DNA of 64,000 bases, from assembly GCF_019084045.1 (NCBI RefSeq), contig NZ_JAHRED010000003.1:248001-312000 (forward strand), given 5' to 3'. The position numbers were made by a program, and so were the translations under genes. This document shows, in pieces, positions 6,921 to 15,048 of this stretch. The stretch's first letter is position 1; each line of letters begins with the position of its first letter. The notes below the pieces were generated by a model. That model searched no databases. It was not told the DNA's origin and saw nothing but the letters and a program-made list of their open reading frames with translations. The DNA comes from Paeniglutamicibacter quisquiliarum. Its GTDB lineage: Bacteria; Actinomycetota; Actinomycetes; Actinomycetales; Micrococcaceae.

Positions 6921-6971
6921 CGCGCGGGGCGCGGGGAAGGAATCTTCCTTCCCCGCGCCCCGCGCGTTTTT
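6921..6971 (+). terminator. intrinsic terminator after the MFS gene
   Basis: A 22-bp perfect stem (6921-6942 with 6945-6966) has almost no loop and is followed by five T residues (6967-6971). It sits between the MFS gene and the convergent FAD monooxygenase gene, whose stop codon lies at its edge. Confidence 0.85.
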
Positions 6972-8149
6972 CATCCGGGGCCTTCCCCGGCCGGCCACCC
7001 TCCGCTTCCCGGGCCGGTCATGGTGAACGTGGCCGCGACGGCGGCGGAGAACCTGTCGGAGGCAAAGAGCGCATGCGCCAGCGCATCCCGGGCGGCCGCC
7101 GCCGGTCCACCCAGGGGGCGGCCCAGCGCCATGTTCACCCGGGCCTGCCGGGCGGCGCGCCGGGCAGCGGCCAGCCGCCGGCGGGAGACGCCGGCGAGCT
7201 GCTCCTCGATCCGCTCCCGGGGCAGCCTCCCGCCCAGCGCCGCATCCAGGACCGGGGCCAGCTCGGCGGCGTCGAGCAGGCCCAGCGTCATGCCCTGGCC
7301 CCCGATGGGGCTGACCTCGTGGGCGGCATCGCCGATCAGGAGAAGGTTCGGGTGGTTCATGGATCCCACGGCAAAATTCGCCGTCCCGAATTCGCTGAGC
7401 ATGGTGTTTTCGCCTCCCTCCACCCGGTGGCCGGTCCGCTGCGCGATGAGCTCGGGCAGGGACGCGGTCCCCGAGTCCCGGAGCCGGGCGACCCAGCGCC
7501 GCCGGTTCCCCGGCAGCGGAAACGACTCGGTGATCCCGTGCCCGTGCAGGAACAACACCGCGACCGGCCCGAGGCCGGTGCGATCCGGGTAGTCGCCCAT
7601 GAGGTAGCGATCGGGCAGGTCCCGGCCGCGGAACGGGAGCCGGGCGGCCCGCCGCACCGCCGAGCGGGTGCCGTCCGCCCCGACGACGAAGCGGCACCGA
7701 AGCCGCGTTCTCCCGCCGCCGGCTTCGTCGGCCTCGACGTCGTGGAACCCCGGGTGCGCGGCGAACGCGGTGAATTCGTGGCCGACCAGCAGCGCCGAGG
7801 GATCCAGGGCTTCCAGCCGTTCGCGCAGCAGGGCGACGGTCTGGTTTTGCGGCAGCGACAGGACGAAGCGGTGCCCGGCGGGGATGGAACCGAACCCCAG
7901 TTCCGCCACCACCCGCCCCCGGGAAATGCCCACCCCGCGGGTGATCGGCACCCCGGCTTCGAGCGCCGCGGCGCCGACGCCGAGGCGGTCCAGGACCGCA
8001 AGTCCCGGAGGATGGATCCCGATGGCCCGCGAATGCTCCCCGATGGCGGTGCGGGACTCGAGCACGCGCACGCTGCGGCCGGCCTCCAGCAGCAGGATCG
8101 CCAGTGCCATCCCGCTGGGTCCGGCCCCGACCACGACGACGTCGATCAT
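6971..8149 (-). CDS. FAD-dependent monooxygenase (UbiH/PhzS-type) of the type III PKS operon
   Basis: A 392-residue class A flavoprotein hydroxylase. It has the FAD dinucleotide fold VVVGAGPSGM at residues 4-13, the GADGTRSAVR motif at about residue 155 and the GDAAHEVSPIGGQG motif at about residue 265. These enzymes hydroxylate aromatic rings with NAD(P)H and oxygen. The start overlaps the methyltransferase stop by ATGA. As last gene of the polyketide synthase/methyltransferase operon it most likely oxidises the aromatic product, for example to a quinol or quinone. Confidence 0.87.
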   Translation of the reverse strand: MIDVVVVGAGPSGMALAILLLEAGRSVRVLESRTAIGEHSRAIGIHPPGLAVLDRLGVGAAALEAGVPITRGVGISRGRVVAELGFGSIPAGHRFVLSLPQNQTVALLRERLEALDPSALLVGHEFTAFAAHPGFHDVEADEAGGGRTRLRCRFVVGADGTRSAVRRAARLPFRGRDLPDRYLMGDYPDRTGLGPVAVLFLHGHGITESFPLPGNRRRWVARLRDSGTASLPELIAQRTGHRVEGGENTMLSEFGTANFAVGSMNHPNLLLIGDAAHEVSPIGGQGMTLGLLDAAELAPVLDAALGGRLPRERIEEQLAGVSRRRLAAARRAARQARVNMALGRPLGGPAAAARDALAHALFASDRFSAAVAATFTMTGPGSGGWPAGEGPG

Positions 8150-8856
8150 CTGTCCGCCGAATGTTCCCCGTGCCAGATGGCCAGGTTGCGGTACAGCCCC
8201 GCGGCGTGCGCATGCCAGCCGGGCGGCAGCACCCGGGCGAGTTCGTCGCGGGTGAAACTGCGCCTGATGGAGGTGAGCCCGTCGCGCCTGATGAACGAGC
8301 TGCCGGCCAAGGGCAGGGTGGCCAGCCCGAAGAACAGCAACGCGCTGCTGCGGCGCCGGATGTCGCTGTGGATTGCCAGCGAGCGGGCCAGCCGCCGGCT
8401 GTCGGCGAAAATGCCTGCAAGCGCGGGCGGGTCCAGGTGGTGCAGGACGTGGTTGGAGATGACCACGTCGAACACCTCGCCCCCGGCCACCAGGTCGGCA
8501 CTTGCGGCCCGCCGGAATTCCAGCTCGCCGGGGCCGAACCCGGCTGCCGCGCCGGCCCGGGAGGCGAAGTCGTGGGCACGCGGGTCCGGGTCGATGCCCG
8601 TCACCTTGACCTTGTAGCCGTCGGCCCGCGCCCAGCGCAGCAGCGCCAGGGCGATGTCCCCGCCGCCGCAGCCGATGTCCAGGATCGTGGCGGTCCGCCC
8701 GCGGGGCAGCGCGGGGCGCACCAGGTGCAGGTACACGTCCCGCCAGCCGGACACGCAGCGGTTCACCAGCGGGAACTGCGCGTACGTCCGCTCCAGCAGC
8801 ACGGGGTCGGCATCGGGCCTGTCCATCTGCTCGACTGCCGCGATGTCCCGTTGCAT
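8146..8856 (-). CDS. class I SAM-dependent methyltransferase of the type III PKS operon
   Basis: A 236-residue methyltransferase. Motif I is ILDIGCGGGDIAL, the acidic motif II is GIDPDPRA, and post-I/motif IV is FDVVISNHVLHHL, so it is the UbiE-like class I fold. I start it at ATG 8856, 11 bp after the PKS stop; a longer frame exists but would overlap the PKS gene by 76 bp. The 3' end overlaps the monooxygenase by ATGA. In this context it probably O- or C-methylates a phenolic polyketide. It differs from the ICMT-type membrane methyltransferase of the Streptomyces srs operon. Confidence 0.83.
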   Translation of the reverse strand: MQRDIAAVEQMDRPDADPVLLERTYAQFPLVNRCVSGWRDVYLHLVRPALPRGRTATILDIGCGGGDIALALLRWARADGYKVKVTGIDPDPRAHDFASRAGAAAGFGPGELEFRRAASADLVAGGEVFDVVISNHVLHHLDPPALAGIFADSRRLARSLAIHSDIRRRSSALLFFGLATLPLAGSSFIRRDGLTSIRRSFTRDELARVLPPGWHAHAAGLYRNLAIWHGEHSADR

Positions 8857-8867
8857 GGCCGCCGCGC

Positions 8868-10007
8868 TCAGCCCCGCCGGCCGGAAACCAGGGTCATCAG
8901 GGAAGTCTCGACGGTCAGGCCGGGGCCGAAGGCCATGGAACACACGCGCTCGCCGGTGGCTGATGCGCGTCCGAGGTGCTCGTCCATGATGTCCTTGAGC
9001 ACGAACATCACCGTGGCGCTGGACATGTTCCCGTAGTCGTTGAGGATCCGGCGCGCGGGCATCAATTGGCCGTCCCCCAGCCCGAGGCGTTTTTGCACGC
9101 GGTCAAGGATGGCCCTGCCCCCGGGGTGGATGCCCCAGTGCGGGATCTGCGCATAGTCCGCGCCCAGGGTGTCGTCGCGGGCCAGCAACGGTTCCAGGGC
9201 GCCGACGATATGTTCGTCGATGATGTGGGGGACATAGGTCCCCAGAACCATTTCAAACCCCTCGTCGCCGATGTTCCAGGCCATGGCCTCCTCGCCCACC
9301 GGGGTCAGCACCGTCTCGAAGTGGTCAAGCCGCAGGCCGGGCCCGGGGTGGGGGCGGGCCGTGACAATGGCGGCGGCGGCCCCGTCGGCAAAGAGCGCCG
9401 ATCCCATGATGGTGTCGGGGTCGTTGGAGCTGCGTACGTGGATGGAACACAATTCGGCGCAAACGACCAGCACCACGGCCTCCGGATCGGCCTCGCAAAA
9501 GCTCTTGGCGGCCCGCAGGGCCGGGAATGCGGCGTAGCATCCCATGAACCCCAGGTGGTAGCGCTGGGTTGCCGGACTCAACCCCAGCGCCCTGACCAGC
9601 TGGTAGTCGGGCCCGGGGTTGTAGAAGCCGGTGCAGGACACCGTGATCACGTGGGTGATGTCGCCCGGTCCAAGATCGGCGCAGGCATCCAGGGCCTTTT
9701 GCGCCGAATCAATATAGAGCCCGGGGGCGGTGGCCGCAAAGACTTCGTTGCGTTCCCTGGTGCTGGGCCGCAGCAAAAGCCCGGAGTCGGCGTCGAAGAA
9801 GAGCGGGTTCTCGGCCACCGTTTCGGTGGTGAACTCGGTGACCGCGGTGTGCCGGGTCGATATTTGGGCCGAATCAAACGACGTGTTGATCAGGCGCTGG
9901 CCCAGCCGGGTCAGGCCGGGTTGGGCGCCAAAGACGTCACGGGCCTTGTCCTGGTACAGGATGGTGGGCGGGACTGCTGTTTGGATGGTTCTCATCATCA
10001 CCGGCAT
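8868..10007 (-). CDS. type III polyketide synthase (chalcone/stilbene synthase family)
   Basis: A 379-residue homodimeric-type condensing enzyme with the full Cys-His-Asn triad: C125 (VSCTGF), H294 (GIHPGG) and N327 (NYGNMSS). It also has the N-terminal thiolase fold and the GFMGCYAA segment typical of bacterial type III PKS. It would extend an acyl-CoA with malonyl-CoA units and cyclise to an alkylresorcinol, pyrone or phloroglucinol; residues alone do not settle which. ATG 10007 is chosen because a TAGGCT -10 box lies exactly 7 nt upstream, implying a leaderless mRNA. It heads a three-gene operon with the methyltransferase and FAD monooxygenase. Confidence 0.9.
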   Translation of the reverse strand: MPVMMRTIQTAVPPTILYQDKARDVFGAQPGLTRLGQRLINTSFDSAQISTRHTAVTEFTTETVAENPLFFDADSGLLLRPSTRERNEVFAATAPGLYIDSAQKALDACADLGPGDITHVITVSCTGFYNPGPDYQLVRALGLSPATQRYHLGFMGCYAAFPALRAAKSFCEADPEAVVLVVCAELCSIHVRSSNDPDTIMGSALFADGAAAAIVTARPHPGPGLRLDHFETVLTPVGEEAMAWNIGDEGFEMVLGTYVPHIIDEHIVGALEPLLARDDTLGADYAQIPHWGIHPGGRAILDRVQKRLGLGDGQLMPARRILNDYGNMSSATVMFVLKDIMDEHLGRASATGERVCSMAFGPGLTVETSLMTLVSGRRG

Positions 10008-10014
10008 AGTGCCG

Positions 10015-10043
10015 AGCCTATGGCCCGATGCCCCCGCGGTAAA
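10015..10043 (-). promoter_or_regulatory. leaderless promoter of the PKS operon
   Basis: Read on the minus strand, TTTACC (-35), a 17-bp spacer and TAGGCT (-10) end 7 nt before the ATG at 10007, so transcription should begin at or next to the start codon. There is no Shine-Dalgarno sequence, in agreement. Confidence 0.55.
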
Positions 10044-10205
10044 GGGTGTTGCGCATCGCCCCGGGCCGGCCAAGCCCGGCGGCGCCCCCGGCGGAAAGGG
10101 TCGAAAAAATTGCTGGCATCCTCTCGACCGCAGGAGTATCGTCTTTATGTGGGGAGACCAACCGCGGTCGTAAGTGATCCCCGACCCCAGGGTGAGAGGT
10201 AATTG

Positions 10206-10343
10206 ATGCCAGACAAATCACCACATAGACACGAACACAAGAAGCCTGCAGGCAAGTCGATCAAGGCGCGACGCGCGGAGAAGCGCTCGAAGAACGCACC
10301 TGAGACAGAGACCGAGCAGGTAACCCACATCAAGAAACACTGA
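10206..10343 (+). CDS. small, highly charged 45-residue protein
   Basis: The protein starts [17 protein letters not shown] and ends THIKKH. It is rich in Lys, Arg, His and Glu, has no hydrophobic segment, and is probably cytosolic and disordered or nucleic-acid binding. GAGAGG lies about 6 nt before the ATG and a terminator hairpin follows the stop, so it looks like a real monocistronic gene. Short basic proteins of this kind are common in Micrococcaceae, but I know no function. Confidence 0.65.
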
Positions 10344-10372
10344 GCAACTTGATGATTGGAGATGGTTTCGCG

Positions 10373-10405
10373 GAAGCGGGGAAGAACAGACATCTTCCCC
10401 GCTTC
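10373..10405 (+). terminator. terminator after the 45-residue gene
   Basis: GAAGCGGGGAAGA (10373-10385) pairs perfectly with TCTTCCCCGCTTC (10393-10405) around a 7-nt loop. It lies 30 bp past the stop codon; the downstream U-tract is weak. Confidence 0.65.
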
Positions 10406-10470
10406 TTCCATGTCCGGCGCAGGACCCGATCGCGGCCGGTTTCCGGCCCAAAAAGTTTCTTGGCATGTTT

Positions 10471-10498
10471 CCAATCCGTTTGCGGACCGGCACCGAAT
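10471..10498 (+). promoter_or_regulatory. SigK-type promoter of the fasciclin lipoprotein gene
   Basis: CCAATCC (10471-10477), 15 bp, then CCGAAT (10493-10498). The same two boxes at the same spacing recur at 12931-12958 before the molybdopterin oxidoreductase gene, flanking the sigK-rskA pair. CCGAAT is the -10 type I recall for mycobacterial SigK promoters. The predicted 5' UTR is about 70 nt. Confidence 0.65.
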
Positions 10499-10575
10499 GC
10501 TCCATGACAGCCCGAACCAACAGTGGTCGGGACGGCGCGGAGGCCAAGGGGCCGACGCCAAGCAAGGAGCATGAC

Positions 10576-11253
10576 ATGAAGCGCATGAACAGCAAGTTTG
10601 CCGCAGCACTCGGACTGATTGCAGTTGCCACCGTGGGCCTGACCGCTTGCTCGGCGGGCACCGGTGCCAGCGAATCGATGGCACCGTCCTCCTCGGCCGC
10701 CTCCTCCAGCAGCGCGGCGGCCCCGAGCAGCTCGGCCGCGGCCATGGACCCGGCAGCCAACCTCGTGGGCTCCGGTTGCGCCGCCTACGCCGAGGCCGTC
10801 CCGAGCGGCGAGGGTTCGGTTGCCGGAATGGCGAAGGATCCGGTGGCGGTTGCGGCCTCGAACAACCCGCTGCTCAAGACCCTCACCGCGGCGGTGTCCG
10901 GCAAGCTCAACCCGAAGGTCGACCTGGTTGACACGCTCAACGGCGGCGAGTTCACCGTGTTCGCGCCTGTTGACGAGGCCTTCGCCGCCATCCCGGAAAA
11001 GGATCTCAACGCGGTGGTCGCCGACGCCGATACGTTGAGCACCATCCTGACGTACCACGTGATTCCGGGCCAGATCGCCCCGAGCGACATCGCCGGCAGC
11101 CACACCACCGTCGAAGGACAGGACGTGAAGGTCACCGGCAGCGGCGACAAGCTCATGGTCAACGGCGCATCGGTGATCTGCGGAGGCGTCCAGACCGCCA
11201 ATGCAACCGTCTACCTGGTGGACACCGTGCTGATGCCCCCGGCCAAGAAGTAA
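10576..11253 (+). CDS. fasciclin (FAS1) lipoprotein, MPT83/MPT70-like
   Basis: A 225-residue lipoprotein. It has a signal peptide with lipobox LTAC (Cys25), then a Ser/Ala-rich linker (about residues 30-60) and one FAS1 domain (about residues 85-225). Within the domain are [20 protein letters not shown] and the H-box region [11 protein letters not shown], ending in [17 protein letters not shown]. This closely resembles the mycobacterial antigens MPT70/MPT83, which are SigK-regulated. AGGAG precedes the ATG by 6 nt; an upstream in-frame extension is ignored. It is followed by a long terminator hairpin, so it is transcribed apart from sigK, yet carries a SigK-type promoter. Role: surface adhesion or envelope protein, unproven. 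Confidence 0.9.
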
Positions 11254-11287
11254 CAGCAGCGCCTCGCACTGCGGCAGGTCAACCCAC

Positions 11288-11335
11288 CAGGGGGTTGGCA
11301 ACCGGTGGAACGTTCCATCGGTTGCCGGCCCCCTG
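11288..11335 (+). terminator. 24-bp hairpin terminator after the fasciclin gene
   Basis: The 48 bases form a nearly perfect inverted repeat centred on GGAACGTTCC, with three G-T wobbles. It separates the fasciclin gene from sigK. Only a short TT tract follows. Confidence 0.7.
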
Positions 11336-11425
11336 CGGTTTACTTGCCCCGGTCGGAAGCTTCGGCGGGCAGGGAACCTGGATTCCTGCCCGCCGCACCA
11401 GAAAGGATGAAGGACGGGGCCTGGA

Positions 11426-12028
11426 ATGCATGAGACGCTTTATCGCATGAGCTCACACCTACCCGGTGGCACGGACCAAACTTCCGCCCCCACCACCGAA
11501 GAACTGATGCTCGGGATCGCCACAGGTGACGAGAACGCCTTTGAGGAACTCTACGACCGTCTCTCGCCCCAGGTCTTCGGCCTGATCCGGCGCATCCTGA
11601 AGGACCAGGCACAAAGCGAGGAAGTCACCCAGGAGGTGTTCGTCGAAGCCTGGCAGCAGGCGGCGCGCTATGACGCAGCCCGCGGCAAGGCGATCACCTG
11701 GCTGCTGACCTTGGCGCACCGCCGGGCGGTTGACAGGGTCCGCGCCAGCCAGGCCAGCAAGGACCGCGACCTGCGCGAAGGCATCAAGGACTTCCAGGCG
11801 AGCTACGATGACGTTGAGGAAACGGCCATCGCCCACGATGAGGGACAGCGCGTCACCCGGGCGCTGGAAAAGCTCAGCGCAAACCAACGCGATGCGATCC
11901 AACTGGCTTATTTTGGCGGCTATACACACCTTGAAGTCGCCGAGTTGCTCAAGATCCCGGTGGGAACGGCAAAGACACGAATACGCGACGGAATGAACAA
12001 ACTTCGAGACCTGATGGGAGTGGCGTGA
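11426..12028 (+). CDS. sigK: ECF RNA polymerase sigma factor SigK
   Basis: A 200-residue ECF sigma factor. Region 2 (about residues 40-105) contains EEVTQEVFVEAWQQ and ITWLLTLAHRRAVDRVR. Region 4 (about residues 145-198) contains LSANQRDAIQLAYFGGYTHLEVAELL and VGTAKTRIRDGMNKLRD. The sequence type and the RskA partner immediately downstream identify it as SigK. GTG/ATG overlap with rskA couples the two genes. A second in-frame ATG at 11447 has no better ribosome site. No copy of the CCAATCC-N15-CCGAAT promoter lies upstream, so self-activation by the same element is not evident. Confidence 0.9.
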   Translation: MHETLYRMSSHLPGGTDQTSAPTTEELMLGIATGDENAFEELYDRLSPQVFGLIRRILKDQAQSEEVTQEVFVEAWQQAARYDAARGKAITWLLTLAHRRAVDRVRASQASKDRDLREGIKDFQASYDDVEETAIAHDEGQRVTRALEKLSANQRDAIQLAYFGGYTHLEVAELLKIPVGTAKTRIRDGMNKLRDLMGVA

Positions 12029-12903
12029 TGGACAAGGACAAGAACGAGCTGACCGGCAGCTTCGCCCTGAACGCACTGGGCGACGCGGAACGCGAGGAAC
12101 TCCTCCGCCATGCCGAAACCTCCGAAGAGGTCCGCAGGGAAGTGGATGCACTGCAGGAAACGGCTGCGCTTCTGGGCCTCTCCGCCGCCCCCGCGGCCCC
12201 GCCGGCCAGGGTCAAGGCCAGCATCATGGCCTCCATCCGCAACACCCCGCAGCTGCCGCCGGCCGTCTCAGCGCAGGACGTTCCGTCCGAGGCAACGCCT
12301 GGGTCCACCGCAGCGCAGGAGCCCTCGGTGTCCGTTGCTTCCGGGCACGGAAGCGAGGACGCCGCGGAACCCCCGGCCACAGCCGACCCGGTTCCCGGGA
12401 GGGCCGCGTCGCCGGCCCTCCCGGCGAAGTCAAGCCAACGGATGTTTGCCCTGGCGGCCAGCGTGCTGTTGGTGGCCGCCGGCGTGCTGAGCGGCGTGGT
12501 GGTCAACCAGAACGCACAGCAGCAAAAACTCGAGGAACAGTTGGCCGCGCTGACCACCCAGCAGTCCGAGTTGACCCGCATCCTGACAGCTTCTGACGCC
12601 CAGTCCAAGAGCCAGAAACTGGACGACGGGGCAACCGTCACCCTTGCCTATTCAGCATCGGAGGGCAAGATGGCGGTGACCACCGCCGGCCTGCCTGCCC
12701 TGCCCAGCGACAAGGGCTACGAACTCTGGTTGATCTCCGGCACCGGGGCAGTACCCGCAGGAATGGTCGACGGGTCACAGGCAGATGGCATGGTCATGGT
12801 TACCGGGGCGATGGAGGGCGTGACGCACTTCGGCATCACGGTGGAACCGGCCTCCGGTTCCCCGGCACCCACCACCGAGCCGATCCTCGTCCAGGAGCTT
12901 TAG
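12028..12903 (+). CDS. rskA: anti-sigma-K factor RskA
   Basis: A 291-residue single-pass membrane protein. The N-terminal anti-sigma domain (about residues 1-70, starting ELTGSFALNALGDAERE) is followed by a low-complexity linker. One TM segment is at about residues 139-159, and an extracytoplasmic RskA domain ends with GYELWLISGTGAVPAGMV and FGITVEPASGSPAPTTEPIL, the conserved C-terminal signature. There is no zinc motif, as usual for RskA. It would hold SigK at the membrane until regulated proteolysis releases it. Start ATG 12028 shares one base with the sigK stop; GTG 12025 is the alternative. Confidence 0.9.
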   Translation: MDKDKNELTGSFALNALGDAEREELLRHAETSEEVRREVDALQETAALLGLSAAPAAPPARVKASIMASIRNTPQLPPAVSAQDVPSEATPGSTAAQEPSVSVASGHGSEDAAEPPATADPVPGRAASPALPAKSSQRMFALAASVLLVAAGVLSGVVVNQNAQQQKLEEQLAALTTQQSELTRILTASDAQSKSQKLDDGATVTLAYSASEGKMAVTTAGLPALPSDKGYELWLISGTGAVPAGMVDGSQADGMVMVTGAMEGVTHFGITVEPASGSPAPTTEPILVQEL

Positions 12904-12930
12904 GCTCCCGGGTGAAAAGCCGGTCTCCAT

Positions 12931-12958
12931 CCAATCCGCTGGTGGTAGCGTTCCGAAT
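12931..12958 (+). promoter_or_regulatory. SigK-type promoter of the molybdopterin oxidoreductase gene
   Basis: CCAATCC (12931-12937), 15 bp, CCGAAT (12953-12958), identical in both boxes and spacing to the element at 10471. An overlapping CCATCC occurs at 12927. The predicted leader is about 60 nt and holds a CCCCGC-AGTC-GCGGGG hairpin (12977-12992) just before a GGAGGAGGAA run. Confidence 0.65.
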
Positions 12959-13025
12959 ACGTAGTGGTTAGTCGTTCCCCGCAGTCGCGGGGAGGAGGAA
13001 TCACAACGTACGGGTGGGTGAAATC

Positions 13026-14585
13026 ATGAACAAGTTAACAGCGAAAAGGCTGCGGGACCTGGGCGCCTTCGGGCTCGCGGGATTCGCGTCGGCTGCCGTG
13101 CTCTTTTCCGTGGCTCAATTTGTGTCGGCCTTTTTCGCCACATCTTCGGCACCCTTGGTGGCCATGGGTTCGGTGTTCATCGACCTGACGCCGCCATGGC
13201 TCAAGGACTTCGCCATTGCCGCCTTCGGCACCAATGACAAACTGGCACTCTTCATTTCCATCGGCGCGATAGCAGCCATCGCCGCGGTGCTGCTGGGGAT
13301 CCTGGCCAGGCGCAGCTTTGCCTCGGCGGCCACCTGCATCGTCATCCTCGCCGTGGCAATCGGAGCGGCCGTGCTTTCCCGGCCGGCCACCGGACCGGTG
13401 GACGTGACCCCCATCATCTTGGGGGCGGTCGCAGGCCTGGCCGCGCTGCGGTGGCTCACGACCCTTGCCGGAAAGGCGCGGCCGACCGCGCCGGAAGCGG
13501 TTCCGTCCTCCGGCGCCTCGCGCCGGAACTTCCTCCTGGCCACGGCCGTGACGCTGGTGGGCGCCGCCGTGGCCACCGGTGTCGGCAAGTCCTTGGCAAC
13601 GGCACGAAACCTCGCGGATGCGGCACGTTCGTCGCTGGGACTTCCAGCGGCCAAGGTGACGGCGAAGGCACCCCCGGCGGAGGCACAGGTCGATCTGGCG
13701 GGCATGCCCCGGTTCATAACGCCAAACAAGGATTTCTACCGGATCGACACGGCACTTTCGGTGCCGCGCATCAATCCGTCCGAGTGGTCATTGCGGGTCC
13801 ACGGCATGGTGGAGAAGGAATTCACCATGGGCTTCGAGGAGCTGCTGGCCGAAGACCTGGTGGAAAGCTACCTGACCCTGACCTGTGTTTCGAACCCCGT
13901 CGGCGGCCAGCTGGTGGGCAACGCAAAGTGGCTGGGCTACCCGCTGCGCCTCCTCTTGGAGCGGGCGGTGCCCCAGGACGGCGCGGACATGGTGCTGTCG
14001 ACCTCGATTGACGGCTTCAGCGCCTCCACTCCGCTGGAGGTCCTCACCGACGACCGCATGGCGCTGCTGGCGGTCGGCATGAACGGGGAACCCCTGCCGC
14101 TCGAGCACGGATTCCCGGTCCGCATGGTGGTTCCCGGTCTCTATGGATATGTCTCGGCCACCAAGTGGGTCGTGGACCTGGAGGTCACCCGTTTCGCGGA
14201 CAAGGTCGCCTACTGGACCACGCGTGGATGGTCGGATCGCGGGCCCATCAAGCTCTCCTCGCGGGTGGACGTGCCGCGGTCCTTCGCCAGTGTTCCGTCC
14301 GGAAAAGTTGTCATGGGCGGAACCGCCTGGGCGCAGACCCGAGGCATCTCCAAGGTCCAGGTGCAAATCGACGACGGTGAGTGGATGGACGCGGAACTGG
14401 GTGCCGAGGCCTCCGTGGACACCTGGCGCCAGTGGCGCTACGAATGGGACGGCGGATCCACCGGAAACCACGTGGTCAGCGTCCGTGCCTTTGACGGGCA
14501 AGGGGAAATGCAAACCAGCGAGAAGGCCGACCCCGTTCCCGACGGGGCCAGCGGCTGGCAGCGCGTCCAGTTCTCCGTTGAATAG
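13026..14585 (+). CDS. membrane-anchored molybdopterin-dependent oxidoreductase (sulfite oxidase/MsrP-like fold)
   Basis: A 519-residue protein. About five TM segments fill the first 190 residues. A SUOX-type molybdopterin domain follows (about residues 225-400) with RFITPNKDFYRID, the candidate Mo-ligand Cys287 in LTCVSNPVGG and YGYVSATKWV. It ends in a C-terminal Mo-co dimerisation/Ig-like domain (about 410-519). The catalytic domain should face outside. Comparable genes accompany SigK regulons in actinobacteria, and here it carries the same promoter as the fasciclin gene. It could repair oxidised methionine in envelope proteins; this is inference. ATG 13026 follows GGTGA; an in-frame GTG at 13014 is possible. 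Confidence 0.85.
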   Translation: MNKLTAKRLRDLGAFGLAGFASAAVLFSVAQFVSAFFATSSAPLVAMGSVFIDLTPPWLKDFAIAAFGTNDKLALFISIGAIAAIAAVLLGILARRSFASAATCIVILAVAIGAAVLSRPATGPVDVTPIILGAVAGLAALRWLTTLAGKARPTAPEAVPSSGASRRNFLLATAVTLVGAAVATGVGKSLATARNLADAARSSLGLPAAKVTAKAPPAEAQVDLAGMPRFITPNKDFYRIDTALSVPRINPSEWSLRVHGMVEKEFTMGFEELLAEDLVESYLTLTCVSNPVGGQLVGNAKWLGYPLRLLLERAVPQDGADMVLSTSIDGFSASTPLEVLTDDRMALLAVGMNGEPLPLEHGFPVRMVVPGLYGYVSATKWVVDLEVTRFADKVAYWTTRGWSDRGPIKLSSRVDVPRSFASVPSGKVVMGGTAWAQTRGISKVQVQIDDGEWMDAELGAEASVDTWRQWRYEWDGGSTGNHVVSVRAFDGQGEMQTSEKADPVPDGASGWQRVQFSVE

Positions 14586-14601
14586 GCCGCCGCTCGCCTG
14601 A

Positions 14602-15048
14602 CTAGGTGTACATGAGCGAGCCCGGGGTGGTCAGTCGCTCGCCGGTCTCCAGCCAGGTCTTCATGCCGGAGAGGATCATGGGCCAGCCGCCGTATAGCTG
14701 CTGGTTTGCGTCGTCCCGGAGCCGGTCATGGGTGACCGTCAGCAGGCATGAATCCTCGATCTGGCTGATTTCGTAGGTTATCCGGGACTCGCCTTCGGCC
14801 TTCACCTCGTCGTCCCACAGCGCGGTCATGCTCATCACGAGCCTGCGGGGAGCGTCGACCTCCAAGACGGTTCCCTCGCCCAGCGGTCCCTGGGCATTGG
14901 GGTTTTGGGTGGCGTAAACGGACCCGGGTGTCCAGTCGGTGACGAAGGTGTTCCCAAAGTAGTAGACGGCCGTTTGCTCAGCGTCTGTCAGCGCCGCCCA
15001 GATCCTTTCCGGCGTGGACTTGATGTAGAACTCATAGATCTTTTCCAT
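14602..15048 (-). CDS. SRPBCC (AHSA1-like START-fold) protein
   Basis: A 148-residue protein beginning MEKIYEFYIKSTPERIWAALTD, the AHSA1 opening, with a TWTPGS-like turn (VTDWTPGSVYA) and a C-terminal helix GWPMILSGMKTWLETGE. Such proteins bind hydrophobic ligands or act in stress responses, often next to an ArsR regulator, which is absent here. A GTG two codons upstream is an alternative start; no strong ribosome site is visible. Confidence 0.8.
   Translation of the reverse strand: MEKIYEFYIKSTPERIWAALTDAEQTAVYYFGNTFVTDWTPGSVYATQNPNAQGPLGEGTVLEVDAPRRLVMSMTALWDDEVKAEGESRITYEISQIEDSCLLTVTHDRLRDDANQQLYGGWPMILSGMKTWLETGERLTTPGSLMYT

Follow-up and report, generated by a model that had tools for sequence, protein, structure and literature searches.

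The stretch of DNA analysed here (contig NZ_JAHRED010000003.1, positions 248,001–312,000), termed the window, is 64,000 nt long, has a G + C content of 0.669 and comes from an actinobacterium that its relatives place in the Micrococcaceae. Four genes follow one another on the + strand: a fasciclin gene, sigK, rskA and a molybdo-oxidoreductase gene (Table 1). The closest named relatives of the SigK protein are found in Paeniglutamicibacter psychrophenolicus (92% identity) and P. sulfureus (89%). The motif CCAATCC-N15-CCGAAT is present ahead of the first and the last of the four genes. Sequence comparisons strongly support these two copies, P1 and P2, as promoters of the SigK type that head the fasciclin and oxidoreductase genes.

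Table 1. Coordinates of the predicted features (positions in the window, except for the last row).
Feature	Position	Strand	Details
P1, SigK-type promoter of fasciclin gene	10471–10498	+	−35 CCAATCC 10471–10477; −10 CCGAAT 10493–10498
Fasciclin (FAS1) lipoprotein gene, MPT70/MPT83-like, 225 aa	10576–11253	+	PF02469; PDB 1nyo
Strong hairpin in fasciclin–sigK gap, probable terminator/attenuator	11288–11335	+	20 pairs; fold z
sigK, ECF (extracytoplasmic function) sigma factor; start at 11426, or at 11447 or later	11426–12028	+	NF007228; PDB 4nqw
rskA, membrane anti-sigma factor	12028–12903	+	PF10099 RskA_C; NF052375
P2, SigK-type promoter of oxidoreductase gene	12931–12958	+	−35 12931–12937; −10 12953–12958
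Membrane-anchored sulfite-oxidase-fold molybdo-oxidoreductase gene	13014–14585	+	PF00174; PDB SorA 2ca3
Distant site and DUF4383 gene	G000:C1:499010-499505 (L269:2011-2545)		

The fasciclin gene is the sole locus in this genome with a fasciclin-domain match. Its protein has the FAS1 domain (Pfam PF02469), and the nearest solved structure in the PDB is MPT70 (1nyo, E-value 7e-57 over residues 62–223). An N-terminal hydrophobic segment with a lipobox-like LTAC is seen by eye, as in a secreted or lipid-anchored protein. MPT70 is a known SigK target. An earlier note, made from the sequence of the window, had pointed out that mycobacterial SigK controls fasciclin proteins of the MPT70/MPT83 type and had given CCGAAT as the −10 motif of that regulon. 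The sequence AAGGAG is found 6 nt before the ATG (by eye). No settled function is known for fasciclin proteins of the MPT70/MPT83 type.

The sigK product passes the NCBIfam SigK model NF007228 (PRK09646) with 259.1 bits (cut-off 226), and its nearest PDB match is SigK of Mycobacterium tuberculosis (4nqw, E-value 2e-47). The start codon of rskA overlaps the stop codon of sigK (TGATG). RskA matches RskA_C (E-value 5e-27) and the NCBIfam anti-sigma model NF052375 (150.7 bits, cut-off 100) and displays one hydrophobic span at residues 141–159. Thus SigK is adjoined by a membrane anti-sigma factor of the RskA family, as is expected of a member of this group.

The oxidoreductase sequence shows N-terminal hydrophobic spans, a twin-arginine sequence SRRNFL, a molybdopterin domain (PF00174, E-value 4e-42) and a C-terminal region of the sulfite oxidase (SUOX) type, and so displays the SUOX fold. 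The best PDB match is SorA (2ca3, E-value 3e-19 over residues 209–499). The protein misses all four NCBIfam cut-offs that were compared: SorA (107.7 of 600 bits), SoxC (88.3 of 420), SorT (59.1 of 570) and MsrP (58.4 of 207). An identity as SorA or MsrP (YedY) was rejected on these scores, which are far below the cut-offs. A substrate was considered and none can be assigned.

An exact search of the window finds the two copies of the motif, both on the + strand, where the earlier note had placed them, each facing its gene by position and strand. They had been described as identical promoters; this is correct for the boxes and the spacing and does not hold for the spacers, which have only 6 of 15 bases in common. 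The −10 box of P1 is 77 nt from the fasciclin start, and that of P2 is 55 nt from a GTG start (13014) or 67 nt from an ATG start (13026) of the oxidoreductase. Ahead of the oxidoreductase start region there is also a hairpin, CCCCGC-AGTC-GCGGGG, at 12975–12994; the fold of 12965–13012 has a z value of −3.6, and the stem is weaker in some members of the genus.

A scan of the whole genome (4,439,639 bases, 35 contigs) found P1 and P2 to be the only exact N15 sites. The objection that the motif occurs at random frequency was checked against a first-order Markov model trained on the window, which puts the expected number of exact N15 matches at about 0.2 for each genome, and 100 shuffles of the window gave no exact N15 motif. 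The backward pattern, used as a further control, gave 0 matches; it was set aside as too lenient because it is about 20 times rarer than the motif under the same model (0.01 expected). When spacings of 14–17 were scanned, exact boxes were found at three further places in the genome, one with a 14-base spacer and two with a 17-base spacer. With up to 2 mismatches the N15 motif is present at 85 places, four of which are one-mismatch sites. Among these 85 + 5 places, membership in a regulon was considered for nine other weak or oddly spaced sites (L265–L267, L270–L275) and rejected, as they overlap open reading frames and have no target-gene match nearby.

Boxes this strict at a fixed spacing would also suit a conventional regulator, i.e. 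a dimeric repressor or activator that binds a split direct element. This is very unlikely: the boxes are asymmetric, and with their fixed 15-bp spacer and constant orientation they suit −35 and −10 elements. Sites across the family are mostly 50–80 nt from the inferred start of the gene, as −35/−10 elements would be, and a search of positions 10343–14900 for a sigma-70-like promoter found none (shuffles 0.4).

The motif is highly conserved in the genus. A SigK orthologue is present in 15 of 15 genomes, all of which have both P1 and P2 exact with the N15 spacing. No variation is seen in any of the 13 box columns of either promoter; in the spacers the invariant columns number 4 of 15 (P1) and 5 of 15 (P2), and outside the boxes and spacers 49 of 162 (P1 region) and 20 of 142 (P2 region). 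At P1, the stretch right after the −10 box, TGACAGCCC, is also well conserved, and an A/T tract precedes the −35 box.

The position of the motif was analyzed in the 400 nt upstream of each of the four genes, at the N15 spacing, in three sets of loci: the genus, 40 other loci of the family, and 70 further named loci (80 minus 10 already in the first two sets). Fasciclin, sigK, rskA and oxidoreductase were the only queries fixed beforehand. Genes with fewer than 60 bases of upstream sequence were omitted, and 60 permuted motifs served as control. In the genus, an exact site precedes fasciclin in 15/15 and oxidoreductase in 15/15 genomes, sigK in 0/15 and rskA in 0/15. The earlier statement that no copy precedes sigK is upheld even with 2 mismatches allowed, in all 15 genomes. 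In the family, a site with at most one mismatch precedes 27 of 37 fasciclin genes, 8 of 29 oxidoreductase genes and 2 of 40 sigK genes; with at most 2 mismatches the counts are 28/37 for fasciclin and 19/29 for oxidoreductase. The figures for the named loci at one mismatch are 19/32 (fasciclin), 5/7 (oxidoreductase), 23/70 (sigK) and 7/69 (rskA). The permuted motifs gave means of at most 0.03 per set with one mismatch and at most 0.27 with 2. Apparent sites before rskA in Microbacterium-type loci are inside sigK and match its codons (by eye); sites upstream of rskA were left uncounted because those examined are of this kind.

The oxidoreductase gene is present in 29 of the 40 family loci. In 26 of these it lies downstream of rskA, at one locus (L151) about 3 kb away, and in the other three it lies upstream of fasciclin. 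In many loci of the Microbacteriaceae the motif is immediately before sigK, and in Nocardiopsis it is ahead of an oxidoreductase–fasciclin–sigK run. In Amycolatopsis coloradensis (L233) it precedes a gene of the flavin amine-oxidase type about 2 kb upstream of sigK, which we take to be of the Rv0449c type. In these sequences, the motif follows the regulon genes across lineages (fasciclin, oxidoreductase, sigK, the amine-oxidase-type operon) and not a map position.

Whole genomes of the family show the same association. An exact site is present in 45 of 149 genomes (the backward control is at 3 places). These are 34 of the 52 genomes in which the best SigK match reaches 51% identity or more and 11 of the 97 others (Fisher p = 1.5e-11, from a table counted by hand over genomes that are related). 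Counting identical surroundings once, the 67 places give 64 distinct sites, 14 of them from this genus. The genes that follow are fasciclin (23), oxidoreductase (12), a CHRD-like secreted protein (8) and DUF4383 (7), with none of these after 14 sites; at one of the 14 (L256) a DUF4383 match begins just past the 400-nt limit. In the order of Amycolatopsis an exact site is present in 24 of 150 genomes, at 32 places, of which 28 distinct sites were classified, three from Amycolatopsis itself were read apart and one in genome G189 was left out. The 28 precede amine-oxidase-type (7), sigK (5), oxidoreductase (2) and fasciclin (2) genes, with none after 12; the three in the Amycolatopsis genome precede amine-oxidase-type, fasciclin and AhpC/TSA genes. 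Eight named genomes, picked for holding a SigK locus, each have at least one exact site, and the genes after these sites include fasciclin, oxidoreductase, sigK, DUF4383, AhpC/TSA and DUF4331, besides some that could not be assigned to a type.

The sites in the family and the order that precede no tested gene are roughly on the scale of chance, and the sequence GCAATCC-N15-CCGAAY inside sigK of the Microbacterium-type loci fits conserved codons (by eye). Both would be expected if the matches were due to chance or coding constraint. This explanation is extremely improbable: two exact sites stand only 2.5 kb apart at the predicted places in a genome where about 0.2 are expected, permuted motifs hardly ever score in these regions when one mismatch or none is allowed, and the comparative counts disfavour it.

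The CHRD-like protein (L235–L239, L245, L255, L337) is secreted, about 260–270 aa in length, with an HVQHIHI-type motif and an anchor-like C-terminal end. The one sequence that was scanned has no Pfam match, PF07452 included. Genes of this type that are preceded by exact SigK-type sites in relatives are candidate regulon members. The gene was searched for in this genome and none was found; it is present in two of the 15 genus genomes, in one of them with an exact site. Exact sites are also found before genes of the AhpC/TSA peroxiredoxin type and of the DUF4331 type (L307 and L323 in the order of Amycolatopsis, and L300 and L306); one protein of each type was scanned and the rest are identified by likeness. 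These genes are possible further members of the regulon in other orders.

The genome has a distant site of the same kind. The sequence GCAATCC-N15-CCGAAT, with one mismatch, is at G000:C1:499010-499037, 57 nt before the ATG of a gene for a DUF4383 membrane protein. There are 20 DUF4383 genes in 12 of the 15 genus genomes. Ten of them, one each in 10 genomes, have an N15 site with at most one mismatch 51–69 nt ahead of the inferred start; the remaining ten lack any site with up to 2 mismatches, and this group serves as a natural control. The motif therefore divides the DUF4383 genes into a group linked to SigK and one that is not. With the distant site, the regulon would be at least partly in trans. 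The earlier prediction of a compact local SigK regulon outside mycobacteria is thus correct in its local pair, which is conserved, and has to be modified in that the regulon is not purely local.

The motif, its conservation, and its link to the genes and to SigK-bearing genomes are observed in the sequences themselves, as are the protein identities and the conservation of the hairpin after the fasciclin gene. Several points nevertheless weigh against SigK as the user of P1 and P2. The counts are not independent because the compared genomes are related. One permuted motif reached 8/15 before sigK in the genus at 2 mismatches (mean of the 60 motifs, 0.13), and the DUF4383, CHRD-like and amine-oxidase queries were picked after the genes that follow the sites had been seen. 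In the family, 9 of 37 fasciclin genes and 10 of 29 oxidoreductase genes are not preceded by an N15 site even when 2 mismatches are allowed. The latter figure, together with the start of P2 only 27 nt past the rskA stop codon, would suit an oxidoreductase gene expressed mainly by read-through from sigK-rskA, with P2 a decaying relic. This is unlikely, since the boxes of P2 are invariant in 15/15 genus genomes amid surroundings that mostly drift. In addition, an exact site heads the oxidoreductase gene in L250, where the stretch read has no SigK or RskA match, and in L249, where only an RskA-like match (31%) is upstream.

Two further points bear on which sigma factor reads the sites. The SigK query has five other ECF-sigma matches in this genome (six with SigK itself), and these are possible users, as promoter use of ECF factors can overlap. 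Of the 11 motif-bearing family genomes whose best SigK match stays below 51% identity, three (G105, G145, G048) keep the motif before a target-type gene, either oxidoreductase (L249, L250) or CHRD-like (L255); L255 does hold a weaker sigma match (pieces of 40% and 35%). The sites could then be promoters of another ECF factor, with SigK-RskA a mere neighbour. This is quite unlikely: the motif is associated with SigK-bearing genomes and tracks sigK across lineages, to within 400 nt before sigK itself in 23 of the 70 named loci, and the targets agree with the mycobacterial SigK targets given in PMC7509140 (fasciclin; the Rv0449c promoter).

The gap between the fasciclin gene and sigK contains a strong hairpin, the maximum of the hairpin scan. 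The segment 11254–11345 folds at −59.3 kcal/mol, with a z value of −7.3 against shuffles. In the genus the fold after fasciclin has a z value of about −3.0 or below in 15/15 loci. Over 90-base segments, z is below −3 after fasciclin in 32 of 52 loci (median −3.5), compared with 10/52 after rskA, 4/52 before fasciclin and 0/52 within sigK. The structure is kept although the stem sequence varies among species. It is missing (z of −0.8 or above) in seven loci of one other genus, g24 (L131–L133, L135–L137, L140), and in L128. The hairpin probably reduces read-through into sigK-rskA, as a terminator or an attenuator; because the T run is poor, it may instead act as a 3′ stability element. A second stem, which looks perfect by eye, is found at 11364–11394 in the same gap.

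Very probably, judging from these comparisons, P1 and P2 are read by RNA polymerase that carries the locally encoded SigK. RskA, as a membrane protein with one span, would by analogy hold SigK until a signal at the envelope frees it. Freed SigK would then start transcription at P1, for the fasciclin lipoprotein, and at P2, for the membrane-anchored sulfite-oxidase-like molybdoenzyme, and would also act at one or more distant sites, such as that of the DUF4383 membrane protein. The fasciclin, oxidoreductase and DUF4383 genes are thus probably switched on together. The sigK-rskA pair, without a copy of its own, is probably expressed from a basal promoter and by limited read-through from P1 past the hairpin. 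Such an arrangement would yield much fasciclin and little of the sigma/anti-sigma pair. The use of the sites by SigK, the start sites, the role of the hairpin and the release of SigK from RskA are what we infer from the sequences.

SigK of the window has no cysteine, and so lacks the pair Cys133/Cys183 of M. tuberculosis SigK; neither column has a cysteine in 19/19 aligned sequences of the family (by eye). The missing pair is a variant trait and does not exclude the protein from SigK. According to PMC7509140, 94% of the SigK proteins in ECF18 and 56% of those in ECF19 have the pair; the paper also describes a cysteine mutant with minimal activity and no activation by RskA and a cysteine-less SigK of Nocardia that is active without RskA. 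Because of these findings and the absence of the pair, regulation by a redox switch like that of mycobacteria is unlikely here. The SigK-RskA pair of the window thus does without the cysteines that are held to matter in mycobacteria, while its regulon and a full-length RskA are kept.

As to the signal, PMC9861118 describes what stimulates SigK-RskA as obscure. The same paper reports that light raised two fasciclin genes of M. kansasii, and PMC8965627 reports that the RskA protein decreased under ultraviolet (UV) light in the soil actinobacterium strain Act20. With these effects, a signal from oxidation or from light/UV acting on the envelope is a reasonable guess. It may even be, and this is a tentative proposal that may well not hold, that SigK originally served in the Actinomycetota to turn on an envelope module made up of a fasciclin lipoprotein, a membrane molybdo-oxidoreductase and a DUF4383 membrane protein, which CHRD-like, amine-oxidase-type or peroxiredoxin genes joined in certain lineages. 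On this view MPT70/MPT83 would belong to an extracellular system that protects against redox or photo-oxidative damage, acting with the molybdoenzyme where it is present, and here the module would be triggered without the cysteine switch in SigK.

Other open reading frames are found beside the cluster. Directly upstream of P1, positions 10206–10343 (+ strand) hold a 45-codon open reading frame for a strongly basic peptide. Beside the fasciclin gene on the − strand (8146–10073) are genes for a chalcone/stilbene-synthase-type (type III) polyketide synthase and a methyltransferase, and beyond these, on the strand opposite to fasciclin, is a flavin-monooxygenase-like open reading frame (6971–8149). 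The polyketide synthase group is similar to clusters for phenolic lipids or quinones.

Cassettes of fasciclin, sigK and rskA genes that have conserved sites have been described outside mycobacteria before: according to PMC7509140, SigK sites show high conservation among Actinobacteria, and an mpt83-sigK-rskA cassette with a SigK site reaches Gram-negative bacteria, even Yersinia. Among the papers listed by the literature search, which did not take in the founding paper of 2008, none came up with the oxidoreductase or DUF4383 as SigK targets; DUF4383 turned up in one, on the DosR regulon of M. avium. The search listed no report that combines fasciclin, SigK and anti-sigma factor with sulfite oxidase, and SigK and molybdopterin do co-occur in a few papers (e.g. 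PMC5885015). The near-invariant promoter marks members of the regulon from sequence and so provides a list of partners: the molybdo-oxidoreductase, DUF4383 and the CHRD-like protein.

Among known systems, the SorA/SUOX sulfite dehydrogenases and MsrP (YedY) share the PF00174 fold with the oxidoreductase, and the SorA match reaches into the C-terminal region; unlike these, the protein here is fused to N-terminal membrane spans. The N-terminus of RskA, ELTGSFALNALGDAEREELLRH, resembles by eye the motifs HTLAGAYALDAL and LDDERAAFERHL of AS19-1, the anti-sigma group of ECF19, as these appear in PMC7406223. The ECF labels differ by paper, since M. tuberculosis SigK is ECF18 in PMC7509140 and its RskA is AS19-1 in PMC7406223. 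The mycobacterial SigK-RskA regulon, as described in PMC7509140, is alike in its NCBIfam SigK subfamily, its RskA_C anti-sigma factor, the fasciclin-sigK-rskA order and an MPT70-like fasciclin protein with its own site. In M. tuberculosis, the same source adds, sigK is autoregulated through the Rv0449c promoter. Unlike the mycobacterial regulon, the cluster of the window has no site before sigK and a SigK without cysteine although its RskA is full length. It is completed by a SUOX-fold oxidoreductase with its own predicted site, and a DUF4383 gene is its distant candidate target.

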